Assembly (NCBI GenBank): GCA_012512855.1
Contig: JAAZDK010000158.1
Span: 1 to 52,287 of the forward strand
Direction of reading: 5' to 3'
DNA length: 52,287 bases
From: Clostridiales bacterium
GTDB lineage: Bacteria; Bacillota; Clostridia; Lachnospirales; Lachnospiraceae
A program made the position numbers and the translations under genes. Every line of letters starts with the position of its first letter. Positions within the stretch are counted from its first letter, which is position 1. Shown piece by piece: positions 40,880-44,422 of the stretch. Under the pieces are notes generated by a model. It was not told the DNA's origin. It did no database searches and was given only the letters and a program-made list of their open reading frames with translations.

Positions 40880-42292
40880 ATGGCAGACCAAGTAAAAAGA
40901 CCGGTTAAAATAACCGAGACGATATTACGTGATGCCCACCAGTCCCTGATTGCCACAAGAATGTCTACTGAAGATATGCTTCCGATTCTTGAGACAATGG
41001 ACAAAGTTGGTTATCATGCAGTGGAATGCTGGGGCGGTGCAACCTTTGACGCTTCCCTGCGTTTCTTAAAGGAAGATCCATGGGAAAGGCTTCGCAAAAT
41101 AAGAAAAGGCTTTAAAAATACAAAGCTCCAGATGCTGTTCAGAGGACAAAACATCCTCGGATACCGTCACTATGCAGATGATGTAGTTGAATATTTTGTA
41201 CAGAAATCAATAGCAAACGGAATAGATATAATCCGTATATTTGATGCACTTAATGATCTTCGCAACCTTGAATGTGCGGTAAGGGCCACCAACAAGGAAA
41301 ATGGCCATGCGCAGATTGCTATATCATATACCCTCGGAGATGCATATACCGTTGATTATTATGTAGATCTTGCCAAGAAAATTGAAGAGATGGGTGCATC
41401 CTCCATATGTATCAAGGATATGGCAGGTCTTTTGGTACCTTATGAGGCCACCAAGCTTGTTAGCGCTTTAAAGGCTGCAGTTAAAATACCGATTGATCTT
41501 CATACACATTACACCAGCGGTGTTGCCAGCATGACCTACATGAAGGCAGTAGAGGCCGGCTGCGATATTATTGATACAGCTATTTCACCCTTCGCTTTGG
41601 GTACAAGCCAGCCTGCAACAGAGGTTATGGTAGAAACCTTCAAGGGAACTCCATACGATACAGGTATTGATCAGAATCTCCTGTCACAGATTGCTGAGTA
41701 TTTCCGTCCAATCCGTGACAAGGCACTTGAAACAGGCCTGTTAAATCCCAAGGTTATGGGTGTTGATATCAAGACCCTCCTGTACCAGGTACCTGGCGGT
41801 ATGCTTTCCAACCTTGTATCACAGTTAAAGGAAGCCCATCAGGAGGATAAGTATTATGAGGTACTGCAAGAGGTTCCTCGTGTTCGTAAGGACTTCGGTG
41901 AGCCTCCGCTTGTTACTCCTTCAAGCCAGATAGTTGGTACACAGGCAGTACTTAACGTTATTGCCGGTGAACGTTACAAGATGGTAACAAAAGAAACCAA
42001 GGCCTTGTTGTCAGGTGAATATGGCCAGACTGTTAAGCCCTTCAACAAGGAGGTTCAGAAGAAGGTTATCGGTGATAAGAAGCCTATTACCTGCCGTCCG
42101 GCCGATTTAATAGAGCCTGAGCTTAAGAAGATTGAAAGCGAAATTGCCGAATGGAAGCAGCAGGATGAGGACGTTCTGACCTACGCCCTGTTCCCTCAGG
42201 TAGCACTTGATTTCTTTAAGTATCGTCAGGCACAGCAGACAGGTGTTGATGTAAACGCTGCAGACAAAGAAAATAAAGCGTATCCGGTTTAA
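40880..42292 (+). CDS. oxaloacetate decarboxylase alpha / transcarboxylase 5S-type carboxyltransferase lacking a biotinyl domain
   Basis: KITETILRDAHQSLIATRMSTEDMLPI, FDALNDLRNLE, SICIKDMAGLLVPYEA; no MKM motif at C-terminus. Confidence 0.9.
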   Translation: MADQVKRPVKITETILRDAHQSLIATRMSTEDMLPILETMDKVGYHAVECWGGATFDASLRFLKEDPWERLRKIRKGFKNTKLQMLFRGQNILGYRHYADDVVEYFVQKSIANGIDIIRIFDALNDLRNLECAVRATNKENGHAQIAISYTLGDAYTVDYYVDLAKKIEEMGASSICIKDMAGLLVPYEATKLVSALKAAVKIPIDLHTHYTSGVASMTYMKAVEAGCDIIDTAISPFALGTSQPATEVMVETFKGTPYDTGIDQNLLSQIAEYFRPIRDKALETGLLNPKVMGVDIKTLLYQVPGGMLSNLVSQLKEAHQEDKYYEVLQEVPRVRKDFGEPPLVTPSSQIVGTQAVLNVIAGERYKMVTKETKALLSGEYGQTVKPFNKEVQKKVIGDKKPITCRPADLIEPELKKIESEIAEWKQQDEDVLTYALFPQVALDFFKYRQAQQTGVDVNAADKENKAYPV

Positions 42293-42313
42293 TAATATAG
42301 CTATGTTTATTAG

Positions 42314-42344
42314 AGGGATAGGTAAAAGCCTATCCCTTTATTTA
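42314..42344 (+). terminator. intrinsic terminator of the Na+-pump operon
   Basis: AGGGATAGG TAAAAG CCTATCCCT TTATTT. Confidence 0.8.
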
Positions 42345-42419: not shown

Positions 42420-42458
42420 AAATATGCAATTGCATATTTCATATCTATGTGTTAATAT
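42420..42458 (+). promoter_or_regulatory. candidate promoter of the ABC-F leader with overlapping 20-bp palindrome
   Basis: TTGCAT (42430-42435), 17 nt, TAATAT (42453-42458); palindrome AAATATGCAATTGCATATTT (42420-42439). Confidence 0.5.
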
Positions 42459-42493
42459 AAACGAAAATAAAGCAAATTAATTTCAAAGCAATC

Positions 42494-42530
42494 GGAAGGA
42501 GTTGTAAGGATGATTATTCTTTCTTGCTAA
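42494..42530 (+). CDS. leader peptide MIILSC with RBS (ORF 42510-42530)
   Basis: GGAAGGAG (42494-42501), 8-nt spacing, ATG ATT ATT CTT TCT TGC TAA. Confidence 0.65.
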
Positions 42531-42715
42531 TTTAAATAAATAAAAGCATAACCTTTAGTCAGCGTATATACTAAGCAGTATTTACGCGTGCTTGTTATGC
42601 TTAAGCAAGAAAGTATAATCCCAACTCAGGCTGTCATCCTTGATGGATGGATAGATGTGCTGTAATCATGTCCGTAAGCTGTAAGATATACTTTCTTGCA
42701 GCTTATTTTTATTTC
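42512..42715 (+). promoter_or_regulatory. transcription attenuator (anti-antiterminator / antiterminator / terminator) of the ABC-F gene
   Basis: Segment 1 (42512-42527) pairs with segment 2 (42605-42620), 15 of 16 bp; segment 2 (42605-42617) pairs with segment 3 (42687-42699), 13 bp; terminator arms 42674-42686 / 42694-42706. Confidence 0.7.
42674..42715 (+). terminator. attenuator terminator
   Basis: GTAAGCTGTAAGA-TATACTT-TCTTGCAGCTTAT followed by TTTTATTT. Confidence 0.75.
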
Positions 42716-42856
42716 AGGAATTCAGAGAATTCCTTTGAGTAAAAGTGCGCCTTTCTTTTTTAGAAAATTGTAAGAACCTCTGAATTAACTTCTGAACTAA
42801 AATGAAAATTAGCATATGAAAACAACACATTCTAGTCTTTCAGGGAGGAAGAATAA

Positions 42857-44422
42857 ATGTCTTTAATAAATGTAAGCAACCTTACCTTCTCATATGAAGG
42901 CAGTTATGACAATATTTTTGAAAATGTAAGCTTTCAGATAGATACCGACTGGAAATTAGGCTTTGTTGGCAGAAACGGTAGAGGGAAGACTACATTTTTA
43001 AAGCTCCTTCTAGGTGAGTATGAATACAGCGGAAAAATAACGGCAAGTGTTAATTTTGAGTATTTTCCCTTTCAGATAATTAATAAATCGAATAAAATTA
43101 ACGCTTCTGCACCAAATAATTATTTTCTGCAGGGACAGCCTTCAAAGCCTTATATTGATGCTGAAAGCAATTCAGATGAAAACATGACTATTGATATCAT
43201 ATATAATATATATCCGGATCTGGAGCAATGGAGACTAATCAGGGAGCTTTCTTTGCTTGAGGTAGATGATGATGTACTTTACCGACCTTTTAAATCATTG
43301 TCATTCGGTGAGCAGACAAAGGTTCTTCTTGCGGTATTGTTTCTTAAGGAAAACAGCTTTCTTCTGATTGACGAGCCGACCAATCATCTGGATATGCACG
43401 GAAGAAAGCTGGTCAGTGATTACCTTAACAGCAAAAAGGGCTTTATACTGGTATCCCATGACAGAGCCTTTCTTGATAATTGCGTTGATCATGTTTTATC
43501 AATAAACAAAACAAATATTGAAATCCAGAAGGGAAATTTTTCAAGCTGGTGGGAAAATAAAAGACGGCAGGATAATTATGATCTTGCTCAAAATGAAAAG
43601 CTAAAAAAGGATATTCTTCGCCTTAAGGAGGCGGCAAGACGGGCAAAGGACTGGTCGGACAAGGCGGAAAAGGTCAAATATGACGGCAGCTTTCAGGGAT
43701 TTAAGGACAGGGGCTATATAGGCCATAAGGCTGCAAAAATGATGAAGCGCTCCAAAAGCATAAAAGCCAGGCAGGAGGCTGCAATTGAAGAAAAATCCAA
43801 GCTTCTGAAAAATATTGAAAGCTCTGAAAAGCTTAAGCTGACCCAGCTGGATTTTCACAAAAGTAAATTTATTGAGATGGAAGGGATTTCAATATATTAT
43901 GGTGAAAAGCAAATATGCAGAGACATCAGCTTTACTGTAAACAAAGGCGACAGAATTGCGCTGATGGGAAAAAACGGCTCCGGAAAATCAAGCCTGCTAA
44001 AGCTTATTTGCGGTGAAGCTATTTCATATGAAGGCATTTTCAGGCGGGCCGCACAGCTGAAAATTTCCTATCTGCCCCAGGGAACTTCCCATCTGTCTGG
44101 GAATTTGGATGATTATGCCTATGCTGGTGGTATTGATCTGAGCCTGTTTAAGGCTATCCTTAGGAAGCTGGATTTTTCAAGAGAGCAATTTGACAAGGAT
44201 ATGTCCTGCTTTAGCGCAGGACAGAAGAAAAAGGTCCTGATTGCCAAAAGCCTGTGTGAAAAGGCGCATCTGCATGTCTGGGATGAACCTCTGAACTATA
44301 TAGATATAATATCAAGGATGCAGATCGAGGACCTGATACTGGAATATCAGCCAACCCTGCTTTTTGTAGAACACGACAGGAGTTTTTGCAGTAACATAGC
44401 AAGCAAAATACTGGAATTATAA
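42857..44422 (+). CDS. ABC-F ATPase, Lsa/CplR-like antibiotic-resistance (ribosomal protection) type
   Basis: Two ABC domains without TM; NWKLG-like DWKLGFVGRNGRGKTTFLKLLLGEY, LLIDEPTNHLDMHGRKLV, FILVSHDRAFLDNCVDHVL, VWDEPLNYIDIISRMQIE; resembles Lsa-family proteins. Confidence 0.85.
   Translation: MSLINVSNLTFSYEGSYDNIFENVSFQIDTDWKLGFVGRNGRGKTTFLKLLLGEYEYSGKITASVNFEYFPFQIINKSNKINASAPNNYFLQGQPSKPYIDAESNSDENMTIDIIYNIYPDLEQWRLIRELSLLEVDDDVLYRPFKSLSFGEQTKVLLAVLFLKENSFLLIDEPTNHLDMHGRKLVSDYLNSKKGFILVSHDRAFLDNCVDHVLSINKTNIEIQKGNFSSWWENKRRQDNYDLAQNEKLKKDILRLKEAARRAKDWSDKAEKVKYDGSFQGFKDRGYIGHKAAKMMKRSKSIKARQEAAIEEKSKLLKNIESSEKLKLTQLDFHKSKFIEMEGISIYYGEKQICRDISFTVNKGDRIALMGKNGSGKSSLLKLICGEAISYEGIFRRAAQLKISYLPQGTSHLSGNLDDYAYAGGIDLSLFKAILRKLDFSREQFDKDMSCFSAGQKKKVLIAKSLCEKAHLHVWDEPLNYIDIISRMQIEDLILEYQPTLLFVEHDRSFCSNIASKILEL

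Follow-up and report, generated by a model that had tools for sequence, protein, structure and literature searches.

A conserved leader predicted to act as a ribosome-sensing transcription attenuator of Lsa-like ABC-F resistance genes

Positions 42494-42715 of the window (the whole stretch of DNA analyzed, 52,287 nucleotides from a Clostridiales bacterium, contig JAAZDK010000158.1) very probably attenuate the transcription of an Lsa-like ABC-F resistance gene in a ribosome-mediated manner, as judged from folding models and from the comparison of related leaders. In the proposed mechanism, segment 1 would pair with segment 2 as long as the upstream open reading frame (uORF) is free, the terminator at 42674-42706 would fold, and RNA polymerase would stop near 42715; helix 1:2 would also conceal the uORF's own ribosome-binding site (RBS). 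If a ribosome were instead held on or close to the start codon of the uORF, it would mask segment 1, leaving segment 2 to pair with segment 3, and the terminator would then be prevented and the ABC-F gene transcribed. The inducers are presumably the drugs against which this ABC-F group protects, namely pleuromutilins, lincosamides, and streptogramin A, which would hold ribosomes at the uORF start codon, and the switch is expected to operate in the cell. A broader proposal, to which we give slightly less than an even chance, is that the leader represents an undescribed RNA family whose reading frame serves only as a landing pad and in which the AUG-stop uORF of the Paenibacillaceae reports initiation-trapped ribosomes. 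The features of the region are as follows.

42311-42340, + strand: terminator of the upstream carboxylase gene (terminator search; gene end 42292)
42494-42501, + strand: uORF Shine-Dalgarno GGAAGGAG (sequence; 8 nt 5' of the ATG at 42510)
42510-42530, + strand: uORF MIILSC followed by a stop, ATG ATT ATT CTT TCT TGC TAA (sequence)
42512-42528, + strand: segment 1, 5' arm of the anti-antiterminator, within the uORF (pairs at 16 of 17 positions with 42604-42620)
42544-42602, + strand: hairpin inside helix 1:2 (present in every constrained and free fold)
42604-42620, + strand: segment 2, the shared arm, with core GCAAGAAAGTATA at 42605-42617 (pairing search, folding, and alignment)
42622-42627, + strand: CAACTC, off-state partner of the uORF Shine-Dalgarno region 42499-42504, GAGTTG (MFE structure)
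42674-42706, + strand: intrinsic terminator stem-loop (13 pairs, 9 of them co-varying)
42687-42699, + strand: segment 3 TATACTTTCTTGC, shared by the antiterminator (as its 3' arm) and the terminator (13 of 13 pairs with 42605-42617)
42707-42714, + strand: terminator U tract TTTTATTT (sequence)
42843-42849, + strand: ABC-F gene Shine-Dalgarno GGGAGGA (sequence)
42857-44422, + strand: Lsa-like ARE ABC-F gene, 521 aa, Walker and signature motifs intact (profile and structure matches)

The RBS, the uORF, the three segments, and the terminator named in an earlier, sequence-only reading of this DNA were all found in the sequence at the positions it had given. Its count of 15 of 16 pairs for helix 1:2 is correct for the shorter span that it considered, the full span having a single mismatch, T.T, and the perfect 13-bp pairing that it described between segments 2 and 3 was recovered completely. 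In the MFE fold, the off-state helix 1:2 extended over the uORF's own RBS, pairing 42499-42504 with 42622-42627. In a consensus-free search for helix pairs with an arm in common, the score of this double helix was reached by 0 of 200 dinucleotide shuffles and, later, by 1 of 5000, and folding of the whole leader gave a z score of -5.6. The GGAG/GAGG of the uORF Shine-Dalgarno was kept in relatives in the leader alignment, and the core of segment 1, TTTCTTGC (42520-42527), showed almost no variation among them. The peptide MIILSC was identical in two Sporomusaceae loci (L061 and L067).

The main gene downstream of the leader is, by profile and structure matches, an ARE ABC-F gene, and its description as Lsa-like in the earlier reading was borne out. 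The protein scored 480.6 bits against NCBIfam NF000355 (cut-off 380), and its best PDB match was LsaA (7nhk, E 1.7e-123); because its 725.3 bits against the Lsa profile NF000167 narrowly missed the cut-off of 750, it is called Lsa-like rather than Lsa. The closest relatives found, from Brevibacillus, Paenibacillus, Cohnella, Sporomusa, and Clostridium, were 64-70% identical, and relatives from the window's own genus were mostly 56-59% identical, the best reaching 67% over partial length. Compared with relatives of 69% identity, the window protein carries about 29 extra residues (about 77-105, in the first nucleotide-binding domain), giving 521 versus 492 codons. Since the carboxylase gene upstream stops at 42292 and has a terminator of its own, we infer that the leader is a separate transcription unit. 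A consensus scan found no strong sigma-70 promoter, and candidate sites were no more numerous than in shuffled sequence; a weak candidate, TTGCAT-17-TAATAT at 42430-42458, may be one but has no support.

Constrained folding reproduced both the off and the on states of the earlier reading, without and with a ribosome-sized block, respectively. Transcripts from 42465 to 42706 or 42714 were folded, with the ribosome mimicked by a block of 33 nt at the uORF start; these folds describe thermodynamic equilibrium, co-transcriptional kinetics lying outside the model. With no ribosome, the probabilities were 1.0 for the core of helix 1:2, 0 for helix 2:3, and 0.99 for the terminator. Blocking 33 nt at the uORF start, with RNA polymerase just past the terminator stem, gave 0.94 for helix 2:3 and 0.02 for the terminator, and when the block was slid along the leader, the flip occurred only with block starts from 42495 to 42505. 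In the model, the antiterminator and the anti-antiterminator were thus mutually exclusive and were switched by the position of the ribosome on the uORF. When the same mask was applied to 71 non-redundant relatives, the off-state terminator formed in all 71 and 51 flipped, the remaining 20 showing no flip under this crude 33-nt mask.

The element was sought in leaders from 138 ABC-F genes. By pairing alone, in a consensus-free test, helices 1:2 and 2:3 together with the terminator were detected at p<=0.01 in 94 of the 138, against an average of 6% of shuffled leaders with any such layout. The leaders with the element spanned Clostridia, Negativicutes, and Paenibacillaceae, and their genes were orthologous Lsa-type ABC-F genes. 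A total of 102 leaders could be anchored, 4 of which were apparently spurious and were left out, and a recognizable copy was absent from about a quarter of the 138. From an alignment of 56 leaders, RNAalifold predicted just two helices, the core of 1:2 and the terminator, and two-sided changes in the terminator occupied 38 cells versus 14.8 in shuffles, affecting 9 of its 13 pairs. For the helix extensions, where MAFFT gaps break the register of 1:2 and 2:3, arm-swap permutations were used. Own arms paired better than swapped arms in the 1:2 extension (-15.9 versus -12.1 kcal/mol; 0 of 5000 permutations as good), in the 2:3 extension (4.8 versus 4.2 of 7 pairs; 0 of 2000), and in the terminator (-18.8 versus -14.3 kcal/mol; 0 of 5000), with the proviso that the shuffle and swap statistics correct only partly for relatedness. 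The effect held inside both uORF groups for 1:2 and also for 2:3, being weaker in one group for the latter (45 of 5000). The segment cores showed little covariation because they are so strongly conserved. The helices therefore co-vary by arm swaps, RNAalifold, and terminator changes alike, and the uORF and the pairings, on whose conservation in close relatives the earlier reading had staked its case, are conserved. Its switch logic is supported by the constrained folding, by this covariation, and by wide conservation before orthologous ABC-F genes.

Control might instead be mainly translational, a downstream structure hiding the ABC-F RBS and the terminator being minor or a plain stop. The vmlR and cplR leaders do attenuate both transcription and translation (PMC9226507, PMC10201436), and when the full leader is folded, the region around the RBS of the window's ABC-F gene takes part in a long-range helix. 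However, that RBS follows the terminator at a distance of about 140 nt, whereas in cplR the terminator stem holds the RBS, and the terminator is the best co-varying helix of the leader; control that is mainly translational is therefore very unlikely.

Equally improbable is peptide-specific arrest, in which the nascent MIILSC and a drug in the tunnel would together stall the ribosome in the style of ermCL or msrDL. A uORF is present, and the erm and msrD systems are precedents (e.g., MsrD, PMC10314930), but the peptides varied freely while the RNA layout stayed constant (MIILSC, MINLSC, MYNFSC, MRNFSC, MKTTSC, MDISC, MF, MK, and M), six residues have little reach into the exit tunnel, and some relatives have no peptide at all. 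An AUG followed immediately by a stop was found in 39 of 98 leaders, mostly of Paenibacillaceae (TAA in 24, TGA in 8, and TAG in 7), and no codon followed the AUG in 22 of the 71 non-redundant leaders, whose RNA layout was unchanged. The uORF peptide sequence is thus probably not read.

Sensing of charged tRNA, in the manner of a classical amino-acid attenuator responding to cysteine or serine shortage at TCT TGC, is less likely still. In many uORFs Ser-Cys immediately precedes the stop, as such a sensor would have it; yet the leaders with no codon after the AUG, and others encoding only MF or MK, keep the same layout, so that a conserved run of regulatory codons is absent, the start-stop, MF, and MK members lacking Ser-Cys codons. 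Moreover, conservation of TTTCTTGC was no weaker in leaders where it lies out of frame than in those where it is in frame (mean mismatches of 0.14 versus 0.35), implying that the codons follow the pairing and that Ser-Cys is its by-product, and the gene that comes next encodes a ribosome-protection ABC-F protein rather than a biosynthetic enzyme.

Among the 98 leaders, the uORF began with ATG in 96 and GTG in 2, and in the start-stop group the AUG was kept despite its U being paired in just 32% of predicted duplexes, which favors a real start codon. Two caveats apply: the Shine-Dalgarno-AUG spacing was long in this group, mostly 11-12 nt versus 7-8, and the triplets after the AUG in the start-stop class (TAA/TGA/TAG/TGG, 24/8/7/1) are compatible with pairing alone, so that the stop could have arisen as a consequence of pairing with UUAC. 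The sequence-only reading had a ribosome stalled on the leader: switching by ribosome position stood, whereas MIILSC proved not to be conserved and Ser-Cys is imposed by pairing, and so what is sensed would be where the ribosome sits, on the start codon or close to it, rather than the nascent peptide. These comparisons point to an element that senses ribosomes held at initiation, at or next to the start codon.

A covariance model of the element, R1, had matches in 28 of the 200 genomes scanned from the window's family and in 13 of 34 from its genus; in the family scan, all matches lay directly 5' of Lsa-type ABC-F genes save one at a contig end. Overall, the gene 3' of the element was an Lsa-type ABC-F gene in nearly all cases, the exceptions being contig ends, a truncated ABC-F gene (L143), and one match without an ABC-F gene (L181, E 8e-4), which is inside a rubrerythrin-like gene and is probably false. 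At the truncated locus (L143:1489-1941, genome G388), an intact-looking attenuator with the uORF MRNFSC is followed by an ABC-F gene reduced to about 78 codons, a switch outlasting its gene. A strict pattern of the element occurred in 7 of 399 genomes of the phylum and a reversed-pattern control in 0 of 399. A rival in which the pairings are accidental and the long leader holds just an ordinary terminator, for which the A/T-rich sequence and a shared segment of merely 13 nt might speak, is barely conceivable in the face of this control, the 1 in 5000 shuffles, and conservation with covariation across several classes.

In Rfam 15, no family matched the leader above the gathering threshold, and relaxed-threshold matches were to plant microRNA and animal models, by chance. 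Three loci of the Paenibacillus amylolyticus/pabuli group (L115, L117, and L126) have an Lsa-type ABC-F gene without the element; their leaders share a different short uORF, MFMWTC(QRT/HWI), accompanied in L126 by a terminator-like hairpin, and are possibly a second, unrelated attenuator type.

The element was also found on two Clostridium tagluense plasmids, on one Paenibacillus urinalis plasmid, and directly upstream of the Enterococcus faecium plasmid gene lsa(E) (L184, NZ_CP023426.1; R1 score 113.6 bits; uORF MYNFSC). Three loci of the window's family (L004, L005, and L006; genomes G018, G162, and G110) carry the lsa(E) plasmid region with the attenuator, into the lnu(B) side, and their identity to L184 of 99.7-99.8% over 3.4-3.6 kb suggests that the region moved recently between these genera and enterococci. 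In another locus (L148, genome G045), the element at 1501-1732 lies directly 3' of a large serine recombinase gene (2-1384) at the contig end, and on the enterococcal plasmid lsa(E) is preceded by what is left of the 3' end of a similar serine recombinase gene, which hints at how lsa(E) was mobilized. In four genera of one family (L014-L017; genomes G005, G138, G124, and G155), ABC-F gene and leader were near-identical, with the uORF MINFSCK, a likeness suggesting that the whole cassette recently spread horizontally.

If the attenuator operates as proposed, inducible control would explain silent carriage and drug-triggered switching of resistance in many commensal and soil Firmicutes, and the same would apply to the mobile lsa(E) found on enterococcal and Listeria plasmids; assays run in the absence of inducer could then underestimate resistance. 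The naturally occurring uORFs, which range from six-residue peptides down to AUG-stop frames, lend themselves to a clean test of whether a ribosome on the AUG is all that such sensors read, the peptide being ignored. If the AUG-stop uORF does report initiation-trapped ribosomes, we know of no smaller antibiotic-sensing uORF.

The kind of mechanism is already known, because the predicted logic is that of vmlR, in which a drug-held ribosome on a tiny uORF blocks the anti-antiterminator and termination is prevented (PMC9226507). The suggestion in the sequence-only reading that the architecture may be undescribed therefore holds for the leader family, which seems new, but not for the type of mechanism, described for vmlR and cplR (PMC9226507, PMC10201436). 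No account of this family, of the leader preceding lsa(E), or of any start-stop antibiotic sensor in bacteria was found in the open-access papers searched, which does not establish absence; the conserved leader family thus appears undescribed. Start-codon arrest by drugs of the pleuromutilin/lincosamide/streptogramin A group has been reported (PMC12421871), and uORFs listed for comparable genes are MIN (vmlR), MRI (cplR), MK[LQ] (vmlR2), and MAGN (lsaA, predicted) (PMC10201436).

As in vmlR of Bacillus subtilis (PMC9226507), an ARE ABC-F gene is preceded by a very short uORF within the 5' arm of an anti-antiterminator, and a uORF-held ribosome is predicted here to free an antiterminator that breaks the intrinsic terminator. 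The vmlR features include NusG pausing and an RBS-sequestering SL-4 (PMC9226507). Unlike vmlR, with which no common leader sequence was recognized, the present leader uses the uORF itself as the 1:2 arm, a near-exact repeat of the terminator 3' arm (TTTCTTGC), and its helix 1:2 reaches over the uORF's own RBS. In cplR of Clostridioides difficile and in vgaL/lmo0919 (PMC10201436), a tiny uORF likewise governs an ABC-F gene via a terminator, with drug-induced stalling shown there; the cplR terminator stem, however, contains the RBS of the gene and so exerts dual control, whereas here the RBS is well downstream. The lsaA gene of Enterococcus faecalis (PMC10201436) shares the Lsa protein family and a predicted short uORF, but its consensus, MAGN, differs from the MxxxSC or start-stop frames here, lsaA being compared by its published uORF alone. 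The enterococcal plasmid gene lsa(E), whose product is 61% identical to the window protein, carries the same element as the window.
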